From: Streptomyces glaucescens | GTDB lineage: Bacteria; Actinomycetota; Actinomycetes; Streptomycetales; Streptomycetaceae | Direction of reading: 5' to 3' | Length of the DNA stretch: 64,000 bases | NCBI RefSeq assembly: GCF_000761215.1 | Contig: NZ_CP009438.1 | Coordinates: 5,101,501-5,165,500 of the forward strand | Shown here: positions 20,643 to 54,743 of the stretch, piece by piece | Numbering within the stretch: the first letter of the stretch is position 1 | How the letters are laid out: the number at the start of each line of letters is the position of its first letter | The notes under the pieces: generated by a model | What the model saw: only the letters and a program-made list of their open reading frames with translations | Database searches by the model: none | What the model was told of the DNA's origin: nothing | Position numbers and translations under genes: made by a program

Positions 20643-20787
20643 TGGGCACCGGCCCGTGCGCTCACCGGGACGAGGGGGGATCATTGACCCCGGTACGCGG
20701 GAACTGCGCAGCCGCGGCGATCGTGGAACACCTGGGAAGCGCGGAGACGCGGGACACGAGCGGGACTTGGCGACTCGGAGGGGTGCG

Positions 20788-21339
20788 GTGAGCGGCACCA
20801 CACAGCGGTACTTCATCAGTTACGCGGGCGTGGACCGCTCCTGGGCCGAGTGGGTGGGGTACCACCTGGAGCAGGCCGGCCACCAGGTCACGCTCGACGT
20901 GTGGGACTGGCGCACCGGCGACGACTTCGTGCAGCGGATGGACGAGGGGCTGGTGCAGGCGGACGCCGTCGTGGCGCTGTTCTCCAAGTCCTACTTCGAG
21001 CCCGGCCGGTGGACCGGCGAGGAGCGGTCCGCCGTGCTCGCCCGCCGTGACCGTGTCATCCCGCTCGCCATCGAACCCCTCACCAACCACGACATCCCCC
21101 CGCTGCTCGCCAGCCGGGTCCGCAAGGACCTCCACGGGCTGGACGAGAAGGACGCCGTCGCGGCCCTGCTGGCGGCGGTCCAGGGAGGCGTGCGGCCCAG
21201 CAGCCCGCCACCGTTCCCGGGCGCGCCCGCCGCGCCGCGCGGGCCGGGCAGCCCGCCGCCGTACCCGGGAACCGTGACGGCCGCGCCGGCGGCGGCCGCC
21301 CCGGCGAAGCCGGACCAGCCGAAGACCGGGACGGCCTGA
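20788..21339 (+). CDS. Free-standing TIR-domain protein with Pro/Ala-rich tail
   Basis: A 183-residue protein. Residues 8-130 form a TIR domain: YFISYAGVDRSWAEWVGYHL at the start, then DVWDWRTGDDFV, VVALFSKSYFEP and RWTGEERSAV. Glu78/Glu79 stand where TIR NADases carry their catalytic Glu. The last 45 residues are Pro-, Gly- and Ala-rich with two PPPYPG/PPPFPG motifs, probably a flexible arm. The GTG start has GGAGGGG upstream. No obvious effector or sensor gene lies beside it. It could be an NAD-degrading defence protein or an adaptor; its domain is the intact relative of the degenerate TIR segment in the vWA protein at 46.5 kb. Confidence 0.88.
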   Translation: MSGTTQRYFISYAGVDRSWAEWVGYHLEQAGHQVTLDVWDWRTGDDFVQRMDEGLVQADAVVALFSKSYFEPGRWTGEERSAVLARRDRVIPLAIEPLTNHDIPPLLASRVRKDLHGLDEKDAVAALLAAVQGGVRPSSPPPFPGAPAAPRGPGSPPPYPGTVTAAPAAAAPAKPDQPKTGTA

Positions 21340-23316: not shown

Positions 23317-24723
23317 ATGTCGGTAGGCGAAGAGGTCCGCACGGAGCAGAACAGGCCGCAGCAGAGCCTCGGCACGGCTGCCGCGCGGAACCTGGCCACC
23401 ACCACCAAGTCCGTTCCGCAGATGCAGGAGATCAGCTCCCGCTGGCTGCTGCGCAACCTGCCCTGGGTGGACGTGCAAGGCGGTACGTACCGGGTGAACC
23501 GACGGCTGACCTTCGCGGTGGGCGACGGACGCATCACCTTCGTGAAGACCGGTGACCGCGTCGAGGTCATCCCCGCGGAGCTCGGCGAACTGCCCGCGCT
23601 GCGGTCGTACGAGGACGAGGAGGTGCTGACCGAGCTGGCCCGGCGCTGCGAGCAGCGGGAGTTCGCCGCGGGCGAGGTGATCGCCTCCTTCGGCAGCCCC
23701 ACCGACGCGGTCTACCTCCTCGCGCACGGCCGCGTGGAGAAGGTCGGTACGGGCCCCTACGGCGAGGACGAGAGCCTGGGCGTCCAGGCCGACGGCTCCT
23801 ACCTGGGCGACCAGGCCCTGCTCGGCGGGGACGGCATCTGGGAGTACACGGCCCGCGCGGTCACCCCGTGCACCGTCCTCGTGCTGTCCCGGCAGCACTT
23901 CCAGCAGGTCGCCGAGCGCTCCGAGTCCCTCAGCGGCCACCTCGAGCAGCTGCGCTCGCTGCCCCAGCAGCGCACCAACAAGTACGGCGAGAAGGCGATC
24001 GACCTGGAGGCCGGCCACACCGGTGAGCCGGACATCCCGCACACCTTCGTCGACTACGAGAGCCGGCCCCGCGAGTACGAACTGAGCATCGCCCAGACCG
24101 TGCTGCGCATCCACACGCGCGTGGCGGACCTCTACAACCAGCCGATGAACCAGACCGAGCAGCAGCTCCGGCTCACCGTGGAGGCGCTGAAGGAACGCCA
24201 GGAGCACGAGCTGGTCAACAACCGTGAGTTCGGCCTGCTCCACAACTGCGAGTACGACCAGCGGATCCAGCCGCACGACGGGGTGCCCGGCCCCGACGAC
24301 ATGGACGAGCTGCTCAGCCGGCGGCGCGGCACCAAGATGTTCCTCGCGCACCCGCGGGCCATCGCCGCGTTCGGCCGCGAGCTGAACAAGCGGGGCCTGG
24401 TGCCCGAGACGATCGACATCGCCGGCAACCGCATCCCCACCTGGCGGGGCGTGCCGATCTACCCGTGCAACAAGATCCCGGTCACCGAGGCGCGCACCAC
24501 CTCGATCATCGCGATGCGTCTCGGTGAGGCCGACCAGGGAGTCATCGGTCTGAGGCAGTCCGGCATCCCGGACGAGATCGAGCCCTCCCTGTCGGTGCGG
24601 TTCATGGGCATCAACGAGCAGGCGATCATCAAGTACCTGGTGACGGCGTACTACTCGGCGGCCGTGCTCGTCCCGGACGCCCTCGGTGTCCTGGAGAACG
24701 TCGAGATCGGCCGCTGGGGGTGA
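23317..24723 (+). CDS. Family 2B encapsulin shell protein with cyclic-nucleotide-binding domain
   Basis: A 468-residue protein of the EshA/SrpI-like family. Residues 1-85 are the N-terminal arm ([20 protein letters not shown]). Residues about 95-205 are an inserted cyclic-nucleotide-binding domain ([37 protein letters not shown]). Residues 230-468 are the HK97-type shell fold ending in [19 protein letters not shown]. Many copies should assemble into a closed protein shell that holds an enzyme. The phosphate cassette of the nucleotide domain has Asp where the usual Glu stands. GGGAGG lies 11 bases before the ATG. The next gene, a polyprenyl synthase, is a known cargo type. Confidence 0.92.
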
Positions 24724-24835
24724 CCTTCCTGGCCACGCGTCCGTGTCCCCGCGTCCCCGGGCGGGTAGATCTTCCGGGTACACGCCTGTCCGGAACGGAC
24801 TCGCCACCGTCCGCGCGGCCCGTGAGGGGGAACCT

Positions 24836-26089
24836 GTGACCGAGTCCATGACGCAGGCCGAGCCGCGCCGCGCCGGGACGCGCGGCGCCGTCACCGGTTC
24901 ACGCCCTGCGGCTTCGCACCGAGGCGCCGACACGCGTGAAAGGCGGACTCCCATCGCGACGGACCCGGACCCGGACCGGTGCCCCGACCCCGATGCGGGC
25001 ACGGACCCGGACGCACGCACGGGCGCCGGCGAGGGCACGGACCCGGACAGCCGACCGGGAGGGTCCACCGGAGACGAGGCCGCGGTGATCCTCGACCGCG
25101 CCCGCGCGTCGGTCGGCCCCCAGCTGCGCTCGGCCGTGGACTCCTTGCCGGGTGCGATGCGCCGGATCGCGCGCTACCACTTCGGCTGGGAACACGTCGA
25201 CGGCACCCCGGCAACCGGCAACCCGGGCAAGGCGATACGGCCCGCCCTCGTCCTCACCGCGGCCGCCGCACTCGGGGGCCCGGGCGCCCGGGCGGCGGCC
25301 GTGCGGGCCGCCGCGGCGGTGGAGCTGGTGCACAACTTCACGCTGCTGCACGACGACGTGATGGACCGGGACACCACCCGCCGGCACCGCCCCACCGCGT
25401 GGACGGTGTTCGGCGACGCCGCCGCGATCCTCGCCGGTGACGCCCTCCAAGCCCTCGCCCTGCGACTGCTCGCCGAGGACCCGCACCCGGCGTCGGCGCC
25501 CGCGGCGGCCCGGCTCGCGGCCTGTGTGGTCGAGCTCTGCGAGGGCCAGCACGTGGACACCGCGCTGGAGCGGCGCGCTCCCGCCGAGGTCGCCCTCGAC
25601 GAAGTGCTGGCCATGGCCGAGGCCAAGACCGGGGCGCTGCTGGGCTGCGCGTGCGCGCTGGGCGGGCTCTACGCGGGGGCGTCCGCCGAGGACGTCGAGG
25701 CGCTGGACGCGTTCGGCCGGGAGGCCGGGCTCGCGTTCCAGCTGATCGACGACGTGATCGGCATCTGGGGCGACCCCGGCCGCACCGGGAAACCGGCCGG
25801 CGCGGATCTCGCGGCCCGCAAGAAGTCCCTGCCGGTGGTCGCCGCGCTGGCCTCCGGCACCCCGGCGGCCGCGGAACTGGCCGAGCTGTACCGAGAGCCG
25901 TACGACGGCGGCGACCTGGAGCCCACCGTCGTCGCGGTGGAACGGGCGGGCGGCCGGGACTGGGCCCAGGGCCAGGCGGCCGATCACATGGCCCGGGCGG
26001 TGCAGGAACTGGCCCGCGCCGTCCCGGACCCGGAGGCGGCGGGCGGCCTCCTCGCCCTCGCGGAGTTCGTCACCCGCAGAACCGCCTAG
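24836..26089 (+). CDS. Polyprenyl diphosphate synthase, probable encapsulin cargo
   Basis: A 417-residue trans-prenyltransferase. Residues about 85-417 are the catalytic helical fold, with the first Asp-rich motif DDVMD near residue 171 and the second region LIDDVIGIWGD near 302. It would join isopentenyl units into a chain such as geranylgeranyl or longer; chain length is not readable. The first 80 residues are disordered and rich in Asp, Pro, Arg and Thr with repeated DPD units, absent from ordinary synthases and like the cargo-loading extensions of family 2 encapsulin enzymes. The GTG start has GAGGGGG upstream. It follows the shell gene by 112 bases. Confidence 0.9.
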   Translation: MTESMTQAEPRRAGTRGAVTGSRPAASHRGADTRERRTPIATDPDPDRCPDPDAGTDPDARTGAGEGTDPDSRPGGSTGDEAAVILDRARASVGPQLRSAVDSLPGAMRRIARYHFGWEHVDGTPATGNPGKAIRPALVLTAAAALGGPGARAAAVRAAAAVELVHNFTLLHDDVMDRDTTRRHRPTAWTVFGDAAAILAGDALQALALRLLAEDPHPASAPAAARLAACVVELCEGQHVDTALERRAPAEVALDEVLAMAEAKTGALLGCACALGGLYAGASAEDVEALDAFGREAGLAFQLIDDVIGIWGDPGRTGKPAGADLAARKKSLPVVAALASGTPAAAELAELYREPYDGGDLEPTVVAVERAGGRDWAQGQAADHMARAVQELARAVPDPEAAGGLLALAEFVTRRTA

Positions 26090-45499: not shown

Positions 45500-46551
45500 C
45501 CGAGATCCCCGAGAGCCCCGACACGCAGTGGCACATCTTCCGGGGCACCGGTGAACCGCACGACGGGATCACCCGGCTGCCGCCCCCGCCGCCGTGGCGC
45601 GACTTCGACGGCGGCCCCGCCCTCGACACGGTGCCCCCGCTCGGCACCGAGTCCCTGCGCCGGCTGGGTGCCCACGGCGACCACGGGATCGCCTGGGGAC
45701 CGCAGGAACTGGAACTGATCAACGCCGCCCTCTACCTGCGCCGCCCGCTGCTGGTGACCGGCGACCCCGGCTCCGGCAAGTCCACGCTCGCCCACGCCAT
45801 CGCCCACGAGCTCGGACTCGGCCGCGTCCTCCAGTGGCCCATCGTCAGCCGCACCACCCTGCGCGACGGCCTCTACACCTACGACGCCATCGCCCGGCTC
45901 CAGGACACCCAGATGGCGGAGCTGAGCGGCGAGGGCCGCAAGGACATCGGCGCCTACCTGCGGCTCGGCCCGCTCGGCACCGCCCTGCTGCCGCGCACCC
46001 GCCCCCGGGTCCTGCTCGTCGACGAACTCGACAAGAGCGACATCGACCTGCCCAACGACCTGCTGAACGCGCTGGAGGAAGGCGAGTTCCGCATCCCCGA
46101 ACTCCAGCGGGTCGCCGACCGGCAGCAGGAGGTGCGGGTGCTCACCGACGACGACGAGCACGTCCCGGTGCGCGACGGGCGCGTCCGCTGCCACGCCTTC
46201 CCGGTCGTCGTCATGACCAGCAACGGCGAACGCGACTTCCCCGCCCCGCTGCTGCGCCGCTGCCTGCACCTGGACCTGCCCTCGCCGCGCAACGACACCT
46301 GGGGCCGGGCCCGGCTCGGCGCCATGGTCGGCGCCCACTTCGGCGCCGCCGACGCTGAACGCAACGACGACCTCGTGCGTTCCTTCCTCGGCTCCGCGCC
46401 GGGCGCCCTGCGCGCCGCCGACCAGCTGCTGAACGCCGTCTACCTCACCCAGCAGGCCGCCCGGCAGGGCGGCGGCGACCGGCAGCGGCTCGCCGAGCTG
46501 CTGATGCGGCCCCTCGACCACGGCGAGCAGGGGAGCGGACGCCGCGCATGA
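45496..46551 (+). CDS. MoxR-type AAA+ ATPase
   Basis: A 351-residue AAA+ ATPase. Walker A is GDPGSGKST at residues 89-97, Walker B is VLLVDELDKSD near 172, and sensor 1 is VVMTSNGERDFP near 240, with the arginine finger likely in PLLRRCLHLDL. It is the ATPase class that works with vWA-domain proteins to remodel targets. An N-terminal 60-residue segment with a Pro run (PPPPPW) is extra to the family core. The GTG start overlaps the protease stop and its own stop overlaps the vWA gene, so it is made with both. Confidence 0.92.
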   Translation: MTEIPESPDTQWHIFRGTGEPHDGITRLPPPPPWRDFDGGPALDTVPPLGTESLRRLGAHGDHGIAWGPQELELINAALYLRRPLLVTGDPGSGKSTLAHAIAHELGLGRVLQWPIVSRTTLRDGLYTYDAIARLQDTQMAELSGEGRKDIGAYLRLGPLGTALLPRTRPRVLLVDELDKSDIDLPNDLLNALEEGEFRIPELQRVADRQQEVRVLTDDDEHVPVRDGRVRCHAFPVVVMTSNGERDFPAPLLRRCLHLDLPSPRNDTWGRARLGAMVGAHFGAADAERNDDLVRSFLGSAPGALRAADQLLNAVYLTQQAARQGGGDRQRLAELLMRPLDHGEQGSGRRA

Positions 46552-49500
46552 CCACACCGGACGGGCGGCTGGCGGAGCTGGCCGAGCGGCTGCGCGCGCT
46601 CGGCGGCGAGCCGTCCGCGCGCGAACTCGCCGAGGCGCTCTGGCTGGCCCGGTACGTGGCGCCCGCCGCCGTACGCCCCGATCCGGCACCGGCCGCCCCG
46701 CGGCCCGCGGACGGCCCCCTCCAGGACCCCGGTCCTGACCCGTGCGACCCAGACGCCGCGCCCGACCCGCCCGCACCGGACGAGCCGGACGCCCGCACGC
46801 TGCTGCGCGCCGACCGGCCCCGCCCGGCCGGCCCGGAAGCCGAGCCACCGGCCGGCGACACGCCCGGCGCCGTCCGCGTTCGTGTCCCGATGGCGACCGC
46901 CCTGCCCCAGCCGCTGGTCCTCCAGCGGGCCCTGCGCCCCCTCCAGCACTACCGGCCACCGGTCCGCGCCGCCGCCCTCGACCTGGACGAGCAGGCCACC
47001 GCCGAGCACGCGGCGGAGACCCGTCTGCTGCTGCCCGTGCTGCGCGCCACCGACCGCCGCGAGGCCCGGCTGCGGCTGCTGATGGACGTGTCCACCTCCA
47101 CCGGGGTGTGGGACACGGCACTGGAGGAACTGCGCCAGATCTGCGCGGGCCTCGGCGCGTTCCGCGAAGTGGCCGTGCACTACCTCAGCGAGGACGCCGA
47201 CGGCACCCTCGTCGCCAGCCCCGCGCGCCACGGCGGGCGGGTGGTCCGCGCCGCCGAACAGCTGCGGGACCCCACCGGACGGCAGCTCACCATCGTGCTC
47301 AGCGACTGCGCCGGACCGCTGTGGCGCTCCGGGCGCATGCAGCGGCTCCTCCACCACTGGGGCCAGGCCGCGCCCGTCGCCGTCGTCCAGCCCCTGCCCC
47401 AGCGCATGTGGCGGCGCACCCACCTGCCCGCCCTGCCCGGCACCCTCCGGCGCCGCGAGGGGCTCGGCGCCCGCCTGGAGTTCCTCCCGGCGGACGGCGG
47501 CCGGCCGCCGGGCGCCCTGCCCGTCCCCGTCCTGGCCCCCACCCGCACCGCGCTCGGCACCTGGGCCCGGCTGCTGGCCGGGAGCACCGGCCTCGCGCTG
47601 CCCGCGCCCGCCGCCTGGGTGCACGCCGACCACCCGGCCGCGCCGCCCCGCGCGGCCCGCGCCGAACCCGACGCCGAGGCGCTGGTCCGCGCCTTCCGCC
47701 GCACCGCCTCCCGCCAGGCCGTGCAGCTGGCCGTCACCTTCTCCGCTGTCCCGCTGCTGCTCCCGGTGATGCAGCTCGTCCAGCGCGCGATGCAGCCGCA
47801 GTCCGGCCCGACGGTGCTGGCGGAGGTGCTGCTGAGCGGGCTGCTGGAGCGCGGCGCGCAGGACGAGTGGTACGAGTTCCGGCCCGGGGTGCGCGAACTG
47901 CTGCTGCGCCTGCTGCCGCCCGGCGACGCCCTCCTCGTGCTCAAGCACTGCGGCGACTACGTCGACCGCCACTTCGGACGCCGGGCCCGCAACTTCCCGG
48001 CCCTGGCACTGGACCGGCTGACCGGGAACAGGACGCCACCGCCCCAGGACGACCCCGCCGTCCCCGTGCCGGACGCGTTCGCCGAGGTGTCGGCACTGGT
48101 GCTGGACCGGTTCGCCGAGCCCGCCCCGCCGCCCCCGCCCGGCCGTCGCGTCGAGGTCCTGCACGACGGAGCGGACGCGGACTGGGGAGCGTGGGCGGCG
48201 CACCTGCTGTCCGCGGGGGGCCTCCAGGCGGTGCACCGGCCGGTGCACGGCCGCGCGACGCTGGCGGGCGACCTGGAGCAGCTCCTCGCCCGCCCCGACA
48301 CGCTGGTGGCCCTGCTGATCGGGAGCCGGCCCCGCGAGGCCACGGAGCGCGGACGGCTCCGCGCACTCGTCGAACGCCATCCGGACCGGGTGGTCCCGTT
48401 CGCGGTGACGAGGCCGGCCCCCGGCGCGTGGCCGGCCGGGACGGGCTCCCTCGTCGCGCTGTGGGACACCGGTGAGGCCGAGGCCCAGCGGAGGCTCCTG
48501 GCCGCGTTCGGCGTCGAGGTGCCCCCCGCCCGCCCGGACGACGCCGTGCCGCGGGCGGTGGCGGACGCCGTACCGGAGGAAGCCCTGCGCCGGGTGCGCG
48601 AGAGCCTCGCGCCGGACCGGCTCGACGCCGCGTGCGTCGTCATCGGGACGTCCGCCGAGGCCAGGGCGGAACTCGCGGCGGAGTACGTGCGCCGGCACGG
48701 CGCGGAGTACGACATCGTCTGGTGGATGGGCGACGCCGGCCCCGAGCACCGCCGCGAGGCACTGGCCCGGCTCGGCGTCGAGTTCGGCCTGCCGGCCAGG
48801 GGCGCCCTGGAGAACCGCCTCGCCGAGCTGTCCCACGTGCTCGGGGACAACGCGGTCAAGTGGCTGCTCGTGCTCGCCGACTGGGACGACGCGGCGGTGG
48901 GGGCCCATCTGCCGGAGGGCGGCCACACCTTGATCACCTCGGTCCGCGAGCGGTGGCCGAGGACGTTCGACGTCGTACGGATGGAGCGCCCGGCCCTCGC
49001 GGACGCGTCCGTGCGCAGGGTCCTGGTCCGGGTGACCGGCGCGGACGGCGTCACGTGCACCGGGTTCTTCGTGGCACCGGGCGTCGTGGTCACGTCGGCG
49101 CGCGTGCTGGGGCCGGACGGGACCGTCACCGTGACGACGGCGGACGGCGGCCGGCACCGGGCGCGGCCGAGACGCTCGGCCGGCGAGCTGGCGTTCTACG
49201 AGGTGCGGGGGGCACCGGAGGTCCCCGGCCTGTGGCTCAGCGACCGCCCCGACAGCCGGCCCGAGGACGTCACCCTGTACGCGGCGCCCGGCCGGGCGAC
49301 CCGGGCCCGCGCGGAGGGCCCGCCGGGCAGCCGCCACATGCGGCTGCGGGACGCGCCCGCGGTCCACGAGGGCATCGGCGGCCCGGTGCTCAGCCGGGTG
49401 GACGGCTCCCTCGTCGGCGTGGTCACGGAGCCCGGCAGGGCGGTGCGCGTCGAGACGCTGCGGGAGCTGTGCGAGCAGGGACCCCAGGGAGCGGACCTGT

Positions 49501-50579
49501 GGCACAGCATCGTCCGCCACGCCGACCGGCCGGACACGGCGGGCCAGCCGGCCCGCAAGCGGTTCCTGTACGCCTCCCTGGCCCGGCTGGAGCCGCCACC
49601 GGACCCGGGGACGGTGGAGCGGCTGACCGACCCCGAGGAGAGGCTGCCGCGCCCGCCGCACCGCCCGCGCAGCTGGCGCGACGGCGCCGGGCACCTGTAC
49701 GCGCTGGCCTCCCAGGACGCCGTCGTGCGGTACGCCGCCCGCATCCGGGACCACCTCGCCGCGCGGCGCTCGACCAAGGGCCACTTCATGCTCCAGCAGT
49801 GGCTCGACCGGGAGGTGGCCGGGCTCCCCGAACAGGAACGGCTCCGGGTGCTGGGCGGGGCCACCGGGTGCCGCATCACCGTGGAGGTCTCCGAGAGCCG
49901 CCTGGCCTACGACTGGAAGCTGCGCGCCGTGCAGGGCGGCACGTCCCTGCACCGCGCCTCCGGCCGCCTGCACGGACCGCGGGACACCCCGGTCACCTTG
50001 CTGGAGAACAGCCTGCGCAAAGCGCTCGAACTGGCCGACACCAGCAGACTGCGGCCGGTGGTCGAGTACCGGCTGCCCGAGCCGCTGCTGTGGACCGCCG
50101 CGGTGGAGGACTGGACCCCGGACCTGGCCCTGCGCGCGGAGTGCACCGTGGTCGTCCGCGGGCTCACCCCGTACCCGGGGACGCGGCACACGCCGCGCCG
50201 GGACGCGGTGCGGCGGGGCCCGCTGACGGGCCTGCGGCCGGCCGGCGACCTGCCCCGCGTGCGGACGCTGCTGGCCGGGGCACCGCCCGGCGCCGTCCCG
50301 CTGCTGTGCCCGCACACCGGCGGGGTGAGCCCCGCGCAGGTGCTCGACGAGGCCCGTTCCCTCGGCTATCCCCTGATGCTCTGGAGCCGCGCGGAGCGGC
50401 ACCGCGACTGTGCCGACCTCCACGACCGGGCGGAGCGGGAACTGGTCAGGTCGGCCGGCGGCGTGGAGCTGCTCGCCCGGCTGCGCGGGCTGTGGATCCG
50501 CGGGCTCTCCGGCGGCGGGCGCGGCCCGCTCGAACACCTCACCGTCTACTGCGACCTCCCGGACCGGGCCGCCGCCTGA
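46548..50579 (+). CDS. Giant SAV_2336/vWA protein with degenerate TIR, NB-ARC and trypsin segments and VMAP-C-like tail
   Basis: A 1343-residue protein. Residues 1-50 are a SAV_2336-type start and 50-110 a Pro-rich linker. Residues 110-520 are vWA-like, with metal site DVSTS near 182 and LSDCAG. Residues 533-670 are TIR-like (DADWGAWAAHLLSAGG, DTLVALLIGSRPREA). Residues 690-805 match NB-ARC (ELAAEYVRRHGAEYDIVWW, HTLITSVRERWP) but the P-loop is gone. Residues 818-965 are trypsin-like, with Arg852, Glu880 and Ile943 replacing the His, Asp and Ser. Residues 1030-1342 resemble the neighbouring protease's tail. It is probably the sensing or holding partner of the MoxR ATPase and protease. It overlaps the MoxR gene by four bases. 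Confidence 0.87.
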   Translation: MTTPDGRLAELAERLRALGGEPSARELAEALWLARYVAPAAVRPDPAPAAPRPADGPLQDPGPDPCDPDAAPDPPAPDEPDARTLLRADRPRPAGPEAEPPAGDTPGAVRVRVPMATALPQPLVLQRALRPLQHYRPPVRAAALDLDEQATAEHAAETRLLLPVLRATDRREARLRLLMDVSTSTGVWDTALEELRQICAGLGAFREVAVHYLSEDADGTLVASPARHGGRVVRAAEQLRDPTGRQLTIVLSDCAGPLWRSGRMQRLLHHWGQAAPVAVVQPLPQRMWRRTHLPALPGTLRRREGLGARLEFLPADGGRPPGALPVPVLAPTRTALGTWARLLAGSTGLALPAPAAWVHADHPAAPPRAARAEPDAEALVRAFRRTASRQAVQLAVTFSAVPLLLPVMQLVQRAMQPQSGPTVLAEVLLSGLLERGAQDEWYEFRPGVRELLLRLLPPGDALLVLKHCGDYVDRHFGRRARNFPALALDRLTGNRTPPPQDDPAVPVPDAFAEVSALVLDRFAEPAPPPPPGRRVEVLHDGADADWGAWAAHLLSAGGLQAVHRPVHGRATLAGDLEQLLARPDTLVALLIGSRPREATERGRLRALVERHPDRVVPFAVTRPAPGAWPAGTGSLVALWDTGEAEAQRRLLAAFGVEVPPARPDDAVPRAVADAVPEEALRRVRESLAPDRLDAACVVIGTSAEARAELAAEYVRRHGAEYDIVWWMGDAGPEHRREALARLGVEFGLPARGALENRLAELSHVLGDNAVKWLLVLADWDDAAVGAHLPEGGHTLITSVRERWPRTFDVVRMERPALADASVRRVLVRVTGADGVTCTGFFVAPGVVVTSARVLGPDGTVTVTTADGGRHRARPRRSAGELAFYEVRGAPEVPGLWLSDRPDSRPEDVTLYAAPGRATRARAEGPPGSRHMRLRDAPAVHEGIGGPVLSRVDGSLVGVVTEPGRAVRVETLRELCEQGPQGADLWHSIVRHADRPDTAGQPARKRFLYASLARLEPPPDPGTVERLTDPEERLPRPPHRPRSWRDGAGHLYALASQDAVVRYAARIRDHLAARRSTKGHFMLQQWLDREVAGLPEQERLRVLGGATGCRITVEVSESRLAYDWKLRAVQGGTSLHRASGRLHGPRDTPVTLLENSLRKALELADTSRLRPVVEYRLPEPLLWTAAVEDWTPDLALRAECTVVVRGLTPYPGTRHTPRRDAVRRGPLTGLRPAGDLPRVRTLLAGAPPGAVPLLCPHTGGVSPAQVLDEARSLGYPLMLWSRAERHRDCADLHDRAERELVRSAGGVELLARLRGLWIRGLSGGGRGPLEHLTVYCDLPDRAAA

Positions 50580-50651: not shown

Positions 50652-53600
50652 TCACGCCTCGAACACCTCACGCACCAGCTGCTCCTGCTCGGCCTGGTGC
50701 CGCTTCGCGGAACCCACGGCCGGGGACGAGGAGTGCGGGCGCGAGATGCGGCGCAGGCGCTCACCGTGCGGGACGTCCGCGCCGACCGCCAGGTCCAGGT
50801 GGTCGATCAGGTTGAGCGCGATGAACGGCCACGCACCCTGGTTCGCCGGCTCCTCCTGCGCCCACAGGTACTTCTCGGCGTTCGGGTACTTCTTGATCTC
50901 CGCCTGGAGCTCGGCACCCGGCAGCGGGTACAGCCGCTCGATGCGGATGATCGCGGTGTCCTTGACGCCCCGCTTGACCCGCTCGGCCTCCAGGTCGTAG
51001 TAGACCTTGCCCGCGCAGAAGACGACCTTCTTCACGGCCGCCGGGTCCACCGAGCTGTCGCCGATGACCGGGCGGAACTGGCCCGTGGTGAACTCCTCCG
51101 CCTTCGACGCGGCGGCCTTCAGGCGCAGCATCGACTTCGGGGTGAAGACGACCAGCGGCTTGTGGTGCGGGTTGTGCACCTGCCACCGCAGGAGGTGGAA
51201 GTAGTTCGACGGCAGGGTCGGCATGGCGACCGTCATGTTGTTCTGCGCGCACAGCTGGAGGAAGCGCTCCGGGCGGGCGGACGAGTGGTCCGGGCCCTGG
51301 CCCTCGTAGCCGTGCGGGAGGAGCAGGACCACACCGGAGGTCTGGTTCCACTTCTGCTCCGCCGACGAGATGAACTCGTCCACGACCGTCTGGGCGCCGT
51401 TGACGAAGTCGCCGAACTGCGCCTCCCACATCACGAGCGCGTCCGGGCGGGCCAGCGAGTAGCCGTACTCGAAGCCCATGGCCGCGTACTCGGAGAGGAG
51501 GGAGTTGTAGACGTTGAGCCGCGCCTGCTCCTCGGCGAGGTACTGCAGCGGCGTGTACTCCTCGCCCGTCTCACGGTCGATGATCACCGCGTGGCGCTGG
51601 CCGAAGGTGCCGCGCTGGGAGTCCTGGCCCGCCAGGCGGACCGGGACGCCCTCCAGGAGCAGCGAGCCGATGGCGAGGGTCTCGCCCATGCCCCAGTCGA
51701 TGGTGCCGTCCTCGACCATCGCCGCCCGGCGCTGGAGCTGCGGGAGCAGCCGCGGGTGGACGGTGATGTGGTCGGGGATGTTGACCTGGGACTCGGCGAT
51801 CCGCTTGACGACCTCGGCGGTGACCGCGGTGCCGACGGCGACCGGGAACTCGGCCTGCGGGTCGGGCGTCTCCACCGCGGACGGCTGCGAGGTGGCCTCG
51901 CGGACCTCGGTGAAGACCTTCTCCAGCTGGCCCTGGTAGTCCTGGAGCGCCTGCTCGGCCTCCTCCAGGGTGATGTCGCCGCGACCGATCAGCGACTCGG
52001 TGTACAGCTTGCGCACCGAGCGCTTCTTGTCGATCAGGTCGTACATCAGCGGCTGGGTGAAGGCCGGGTTGTCCGACTCGTTGTGACCGCGGCGGCGGTA
52101 GCAGATGAGGTCGATCACCACGTCCTTGTTGAACGCCTGGCGGAACTCGAAGGCCAGGCGCGCGACGCGCACGACCGCCTCCGGGTCGTCGCCGTTCACG
52201 TGGAAGATCGGGGCCTCGATCATCCGGGCCACGTCCGTCGCGTACATGGAGGAACGCGAGGACTCCGGGGCGGCGGTGAAGCCGACCTGGTTGTTGATCA
52301 CGATGTGGACGGTGCCACCCGTGCGGTAGCCGCGCAGCTGCGACATGTTCAGGGTCTCGGCCACCACGCCCTGGCCCGCGAAGGCCGCGTCGCCGTGGAT
52401 CGCCACCGGCAGGACCGTGAAGTCCGTGCCGCCCTTGTTGATGATGTCCTGCTTGGCGCGGGCGACGCCCTCCAGGACCGGGTCGACGGCCTCCAGGTGG
52501 GACGGGTTCGCGACCAGCGACACCTTGATCTGCTCGCCGTCGAGGCCGGTGAAGGTGCCCTCGGCGCCCAGGTGGTACTTCACGTCGCCGGAGCCGTGCA
52601 TCGACTTCGGGTCGAGGTTGCCCTCGAACTCGCGGAAGATCTGCGCGTACGACTTGCCGACGATGTTGGCGAGGACGTTGAGGCGGCCGCGGTGGGCCAT
52701 GCCGATGACGACCTCGTCCAGGCGGGACTCGGCGGCCGAGTCCAGCACCGCGTCCAGCAGCGGGATGACGGACTCGCCGCCCTCCAGCGAGAAGCGCTTC
52801 TGGCCGACGTACTTCGTCTGCAGGAAGGTCTCGAAGGCCTCGGCGGCGTTCAGGCGGCGCAGGATGCGCAGCTGCTCCTCGCGCTCCGGCTTGGCGTGCG
52901 GGCGCTCCACGCGGTCCTGGATCCACTTGCGCTGCTTGGGGTCCTGGATGTGCATGAACTCGATGCCGGTGGTGCGGCAGTACGAGTCGCGCAGCACGCC
53001 GAGGATGTCGCGGAGCTTCATCATCGACTTGCCGGCGAAGCCGCCGACGGCGAACTCGCGCTCCAGGTCCCACAGCGTCAGCCCGTGCTCGACGATGTCG
53101 AGGTCGGGGTGCTTGCGCTGGCGGTACTCCAGCGGGTCGGTGTCGGCCATGACGTGGCCGCGGACCCGGTAGGAGTGGATCAGCTCGAAGACGCGGGCGG
53201 CCTTGGTGACGTCGTCGTCGTGGGACGCGTCGATGTCCTTGAGCCAGCGGACCGGCTCGTAGGGGATGCGCAGCGCCTCGAAGATGTCGTCGTAGAAGTT
53301 GTTCTCGCCGAGCAGCAGGTTGGCGACGGTGCGCAGGAACTCGCCGGAGGCGGCGCCCTGGATCACCCGGTGGTCGTAGGTCGACGTGAGCGTCATGACC
53401 TTCGAGATGCCGAGCTTGTTCAGGGTGTCCTGGGAGGTGCCCTGGAACTCCGCCGGGTAGTCCATGGAGCCGACGCCCATGATCACCGACTGGCCGGGCA
53501 TCAGGCGCGGCACGGAGTGGACGGTGCCGAGGCCGCCGGGGTTGGTCAGGGAGACCGTGACGCCGGTGAAGTCGTCCATCGTCAGCTTGCCCTCACGGGC

Positions 53601-54452
53601 GCGGCGGACGATGTCCTCGTAGGCCTGCCAGAACTCGAAGAAGTTCAGCGTCTCGGCCTTCTTGATCGCCGCGACGACGAGCTGGCGGTCGCCGTTGGGC
53701 TTGACCAGGTCGATGGCGAGGCCGAGGTTGATGTGCGGGGGCTTGACGAGGGTGGGCTTGCCGTCCTTCTCCCCGAACGACCAGTTCATCGACGGCATGG
53801 CCTTGATGGCCTGCACCATCGCGAAGCCGATGAGGTGGGTGAAGGAGATCTTCCCGCCCCGGGCCCGCTTGAGGTGGTTGTTGATGACGATGCGGTTGTC
53901 GAAGAGCAGCTTCACCGGCACCGCGCGGACCGAGGTGGCGGTCGGCAGCTCCAGCGAGGCGTTCATGTTCTTGGCGACCGCGGCGGCCGGGCCGCGCAGC
54001 GTGACCAGCTCGGGGCCCTCCGGGGCCTCCGCGGCGGGCGCGGCCTTGGCCTTCGGCCGAGCGGGCGCCTGTGCGGGTTGCGCCGGCTTGGCCGGGGAGG
54101 GGGCCGCGGCCTTCGCCGCGGGAGCGGGAGCCGCGGGGGCGGCCGGGGCGGCGGGTTGCGCCGGTGCGGCCGGTGCGGCGGGCTGCGGGGCCGGGGTGGG
54201 CGTCTGGGGGGTGGTCTCCGCGGCCCCCGCGGCCGCAGGTCCCGCCGGAGCCGGGGCGCCGGCGGCGCCTGGCTTGTAATCGGCGAAGAAGTCCCACCAG
54301 GCGCGGTCTACCGAATTCGGGTCCTGGAGGTACTGCTGATAGATCTCGTCGACGAGCCACTCGTTGGCACCGAACGCGGCAGCGGGGTTCTTGCCCGCTT
54401 GGTCTGCGTCGGTGGAGATGCTCGATGCGTTACTGGGGGACTGTGGCGACAC
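50652..54452 (-). CDS. kgd: 2-oxoglutarate decarboxylase/dehydrogenase E1-E2 fusion (Kgd)
   Basis: A 1266-residue enzyme of central metabolism that acts on 2-oxoglutarate with thiamine diphosphate. Residues 20-60 ([20 protein letters not shown]) are the E1 N-terminal element. Residues 60-145 are an Ala/Pro linker. Residues 145-380 are an E2-type acyltransferase domain ([15 protein letters not shown]). The rest is the E1 part ([32 protein letters not shown]). There is no lipoyl domain, as in other actinobacteria, where the fusion works with an E2 elsewhere and is controlled by the FHA protein OdhI/GarA. The GTG start fits the conserved SPQSPSN opening; a GTG nine codons earlier is possible. 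Confidence 0.93.
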
Positions 54453-54743
54453 GGCGGCAACCGCCCTCTTCCGCTTCACAAGGTGATGGACAGCGGGAAT
54501 AAAGGCTACGCCTCCCCGACCGGGAAGGTCAGGCCGGGCCCGTTCATCGTCGTGTAAGTCACATCTGGATCCGTGTTTCGGGCCTGATAATGGCGGGAAA
54601 CTAGCGAGGTTCCGGTTTGTGAGAGGGCGTCCTGGGTACGCCGACGCGGGCCCGGCGCGCCGACCGCGCGGGGCCGTGCCTGATCACACGTGTCCGGCAG
54701 CGCGGACGCCTGTGGATCTTGTGGCTCCGCTTCGAACTTTACG

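Follow-up and report, generated by a model that had tools for sequence, protein, structure and literature searches.

A family 2B encapsulin operon of Streptomyces glaucescens with a polyprenyl diphosphate synthase as probable cargo

Two neighbouring genes of Streptomyces glaucescens encode a family 2B encapsulin shell protein of the EshB/SCO5249 type and a polyprenyl diphosphate synthase of the SCO5250 type, and the synthase is likely the cargo of the shell. They lie in a window of 64,000 nucleotides, which is the whole stretch of DNA that we analysed, and the locus is a standard member of an operon class that has been published before. The reading that we favour, and consider fairly probable, is an EshB-type family 2B operon in which the synthase, as probable cargo, is loaded by features common to the shell-linked enzymes, its long N-terminal tail being a linker.

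The shell protein and its inserted domain

The shell gene (window 23317..24723, + strand) encodes a protein of 468 aa. This protein scored 770 bits against the curated NCBI model NF041163 (encap_f2b), which has a cut-off of 400 bits, and 459 bits against PF19307, and it matched the solved 2B shell 9bhu with E=1e-194 and 650 bits; the assignment to family 2B made in the initial annotation is therefore borne out. A profile search of the S. glaucescens genome returned one 2B shell gene and one synthase gene over the cut-offs.

Regarding the layout of the protein, a cyclic-nucleotide-binding domain had been placed before the HK97 fold. Instead, two blocks of the protein, residues 11-62 and 232-466, can be aligned with the 2A shell 6x8m, and PF00027 matches between them (63 bits, residues 114-201), so that the cyclic-nucleotide-binding-like domain (residues about 95-215, 23599..23961, + strand) is an insertion within the fold. 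In the literature, the E-loop of the HK97 fold is given as the place of the inserted domain in 2B shells.

Furthermore, the shell carries the motif SRRRGTK at residues 334-340 (24316..24336, + strand). It is of the RRR type described in PMC12407261, where this type is that of Enc2 of two-shell systems (Sl-Enc2), and the RRR motif is also present in 9bhu. Where other families have two shells in one operon, it is the RRR-type shell that adjoins the synthase, with the TVWK-type shell upstream. The motif thus groups our shell with the Enc2 type, which is in line with single-shell assembly, and from the similarity to 9bhu together with the RRR motif we predict that the protein probably self-assembles alone into an icosahedral shell. 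We also considered whether the luminal loop (motif 2) could mark the cargo type of a shell, and discarded the idea because the loop did not cleanly separate linked from unlinked shells.

The binding-cassette region of the inserted domain reads G164-D165 ... I174-W175-E176. We aligned this pocket with the genome's own CRP-like protein, which retains GE...RT, and with 168 distinct shells. The Asp noted in the initial annotation in place of the usual Glu is indeed there, as D165, but it is not a divergence of this protein, because residue 165 is Asp in 112 of the 168 shells and Glu in 40. In the region of the phosphate-binding Arg of CRP, 167 of the 168 shells have a Trp at position 175. Therefore the phosphate-binding Glu and Arg that would mark a cyclic-nucleotide-responsive cassette are replaced here by D165 and I174-W175-E176. 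In PMC12407261, the domain of a related 2B shell is stated, with a preprint as the source, to bind no cyclic nucleotide, and another ligand is suggested for this domain, which lies over the two-fold pore. The absence of the phosphate-binding Arg and that statement on a related shell both speak against the gating by cyclic nucleotides that had been suggested for this compartment. From its position over the pore, the inserted domain may influence the flux, although not through the usual binding of a cAMP-like ligand.

The synthase and its linkage to the shell

The gene next to the shell gene had been named as a polyprenyl synthase, and this was confirmed: its product scored 486 bits (cut-off 450) against NF041169 (f2_encap_cargo4, 'family 2 encapsulin cargo polyprenyl transferase') and 197 bits against PF00348. 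The mechanical open reading frame, 24686-26089, opens within the shell gene. Translation likely begins at the GTG at 24836, behind gaggggg and 113 bp past the last base of the shell gene, which gives a protein of 417 aa (24836..26089, + strand). A simple consensus scan, a method that is hardly informative for Streptomyces, found no promoter or terminator between the two genes. In one Streptomyces subgroup (L142 1396, L145 1399, L032 6404 and their relatives) the GTG of the synthase overlaps the TGA of the shell gene, which suggests translational coupling in that subgroup.

The enzyme has the motifs of a class I trans-prenyl diphosphate synthase, namely the first DDxxD (D173, D174, D177), the second Asp motif (D305, D306), K264-T265 and G131-K132 ... 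R135-P136. All of them, as well as F168, are invariant in 34 aligned sequences, the unlinked paralogue included. Its AF2 model matches 3nf2 at a TMt of 0.90 and is also like archaeal GGPP synthases. Given F168 at position -5 of the first motif and the nearest models, the product is most likely C20, so that the enzyme would be a geranylgeranyl diphosphate synthase.

Regarding the linkage, in 61 Streptomycetaceae genomes all 30 synthases over the cut-off have a 2B shell gene at a distance of 47-928 bp and lie downstream of it on the same strand, and none of the below-cut-off paralogues listed for those genomes lies closer than 15 kb to a shell. Of 65 full-length Streptomyces loci, all 65 have the synthase after the shell, but the next gene along, a GNAT gene, was found in only 35, a TetR gene in 25 and a TIR-domain gene in 3. 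In a class-wide sample the shell adjoins 35 of the 40 synthases over the cut-off. The other five are not beside a shell, although shells are present on other contigs in four of the genomes concerned. We also observed that the synthases L193, L195, L196 and L197 of one genus (g30) exceed the cargo-model cut-off and have no adjoining shell, with two shells elsewhere in the genomes; therefore a match to the cargo model does not prove linkage by itself. One Streptomyces metagenome-assembled genome (L080, 3357-3702) keeps a shell of 86% identity and lacks the synthase, with the GNAT gene directly next, which reflects either a true loss of the gene or an error of the assembly. This case, together with the five unlinked synthases, indicates that the partnership is not obligatory. 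Nevertheless, the curated models and the linkage at both levels uphold the initial proposal that the two genes form a probable cargo system.

Upstream of the pair are a WhiB gene, a sigma-70 factor gene, a sodium/proton exchanger, a TIR-domain gene, a PLP enzyme and an amidase, and downstream are GNAT and TetR genes. The TIR-domain gene (window 20656-21339), beside the exchanger, occurs in only 3 of the 65 related loci (5 kb flanks) and thus is perhaps a recent arrival. Elsewhere in the window there are two very long open frames, 46548-50579 and 50652-54479, of 1343 and 1275 aa. Outside the window, about 29 kb upstream, there is a terpene cyclase gene (G000:C1:5095654-5096241). It was considered as a partner and rejected, because in other genomes of the genus it also lies at a similar distance, 26-37 kb, from the shell, which is likely plain synteny.

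The N-terminal tail and the loading of the synthase

The initial annotation had described a disordered, Asp/Pro/Arg-rich N-terminus of 80 residues as the packaging element of the synthase. The low-complexity tail itself is real (residues 1-80, 24836..25075, + strand) and is predicted disordered: in the AF2 model, pLDDT is below 50 at residues 1-5 and 7-76, order begins at residue 77, and confidence is good for the helix 77-102 and for the residues after it, so that the stretch from 77 to the Pfam match at 128 is predicted to be mostly ordered. It is not conserved in the orthologues. At the DNA level, the Asp/Pro-rich part of the tail comes from 4.6 tandem copies of an 18-bp repeat (24966..25048, + strand, score 66).

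Among 94 relatives, with the starts chosen by our script, the tails ranged from 9 to 108 aa and were dissimilar in sequence. The limits set by in-frame stops do not depend on the choice of start codon, and by these limits the tail was 22 aa or shorter in 14 of 29 shell-linked synthases of the family-wide set. In other families the shell-linked synthases have tails of 9-15 aa with the chosen starts, and nearly all are stop-limited at 9-16; taking other genera and families together, most of the shell-linked orthologues have 9-22 residues before the ordered fold. The unlinked close relatives have equally short tails. In a tree for which the tails of the 86 enzymes were left out, those whose tails have at least 20 residues fall into one clade of 38 rows (support 99) and a few single rows or pairs, and the label needs 10 changes. 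The length limits, the tree and the tandem repeat together argue that the tail is a late, variable, low-complexity expansion and not a general loading domain. A disordered N-terminal domain of 50-100 residues is present in the S. glaucescens synthase and missing from many shell-linked orthologues, and therefore it does not define the cargo group. The role in packaging given to the tail was thus not sustained, since outside one Streptomyces clade the corresponding stretch of most shell-linked orthologues is no more than 9-22 residues long, although a long tail could still matter within that clade.

It is for these reasons very unlikely that the 80-residue N-terminus is the cargo-loading domain of a shell gated by a cyclic nucleotide or something similar. 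Such a reading has on its side the predicted disorder of the tail, the Pfam membership of the inserted domain in the cyclic-nucleotide-binding family and the proposal that family 2 cargo is loaded via disordered termini, one of which has been demonstrated for the cysteine desulfurase; the absence of the tail outside one clade, its partial origin in a tandem repeat and the pocket described above all weigh against it. Rather unlikely, but less so, is that a short N-terminal peptide is the loader, present in Streptomyces as MGEFMTE- or TLERR-like pieces, and that the long stretch is a spacer. Nearly all of 21 sister-genus shell-linked synthases begin with MG-x-[FS]-T-L-[DE]-R-[ED] or close variants, which none of 21 paralogues has, and L137 keeps the N-terminal peptide ahead of a 60-residue repeat linker. 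Furthermore, Streptomyces N-termini scored better than shuffles with the sister-genus matrix (mean -10.1 against -17.0, 0 of 500), and T-x-E-R or E-R-R pieces inside the Streptomyces tails exceeded those in shuffles. However, the gain in score may come from a shared composition of the start region and from shared ancestry, and the motif is not visible in other families, whose shell-linked synthases begin with MATTERTDGR, MSITEDTTRGR and similar sequences, nor in several members of Streptomyces (MTISDTTQGR). MG-x-x-TLDRE was therefore rejected as a universal tag, since it holds inside Streptomycetaceae and was not seen in the other families; we keep the short peptide as a lead.

Loading without the disordered tail through a folded surface, for example the D-x-H-P-A loop (residues 215-219) or the V-T-R-R end (412-415), seems to us decidedly unlikely as a specific proposal. 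Both elements are typical of shell-linked enzymes; the H217 loop and the C-terminal RR occur in 95-97% of the linked and 3-5% of the unlinked enzymes. Nevertheless, we did not retain them as specific signatures, because the linked enzymes all belong to one subfamily and a TRR end is found in L203 and L205 as well, which are unlinked; they serve only as a lead. If it were true, loading by a folded surface would be a principle unlike the loading by tag or tail proposed for other encapsulins. The synthase might also be co-regulated and not packaged, working outside the shell, with its product handled, for instance, by the shell or another protein. The linkage is also compatible with a synthase acting on the shell or outside it, which is a point against our preferred reading, there is no tag conserved across families, and the partnership is at times lost, as in L080 and the 5 of 40 synthases of the class-wide sample. 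Against it, the cysteine desulfurase and the terpene cyclase, in the same family 2 position, are reported cargo, and we consider an unpackaged synthase to be rather improbable. In the literature searched we found no experiment on the S. glaucescens pair or on any synthase cargo. According to the preferred reading, an operon with the synthase as probable cargo, loading would most likely take place via features common to the shell-linked synthases, namely the body of the folded enzyme and/or some ten residues at the N- or the C-terminus, and the long Asp/Pro/Arg stretch would serve one Streptomyces clade only as a linker that can expand.

Comparison with known systems

The locus very probably corresponds to the region from SigH (SCO5243) to SCO5249/SCO5250 of S. 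coelicolor, with orthology judged by family, neighbourhood and literature. The type of neighbourhood is alike, with a WhiB gene and a sigma factor gene and then EshB/SCO5249 and SCO5250. SCO5249 is eshB, a cyclic-nucleotide-binding-like protein that is up in development (PMC3878966), and a possible AtrA target (PMC13170358), whereas SCO5250 was reported 4.4-fold higher on glucose (PMC7494193). EshA/SCO7699, the 2-methylisoborneol-linked shell, and 9bhu have the same domain order as our shell along the whole length. However, EshA shares its operon with genes for 2-methylisoborneol (PMC6428758), and the S. glaucescens shell is paired with a prenyl synthase. Regarding the enzyme, the S. coelicolor polyprenyl synthetase 3nf2 has the same fold, with 42% identity and the N-terminal helix included, but it is closer to the unlinked paralogue of the genome (L005, 43% identical to the window synthase) than to the shell-linked enzyme.

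About 900 family 2B polyprenyl-transferase encapsulin operons have been published (Andreas and Giessen 2021, PMC8346489), almost exclusively from Actinobacteria, and the shell type, the cargo type and the order of shell and then synthase are as here. That survey reported no targeting motif for the prenyl synthases and pointed to their disordered N-terminus. Our analysis narrows the route of these enzymes into 2B shells, because the long tail appears as a late expansion in one clade, and therefore loading tests should turn to short-tailed orthologues and to the folded body. In the survey, a disordered N-terminal domain of 50-100 residues is consistently present, whereas here many shell-linked synthases have 9-22 residues. 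Furthermore, a stretch of about 45 residues ahead of the Pfam match is predicted mostly ordered here, which suggests that the published length partly counts an ordered helical stretch outside the Pfam match.
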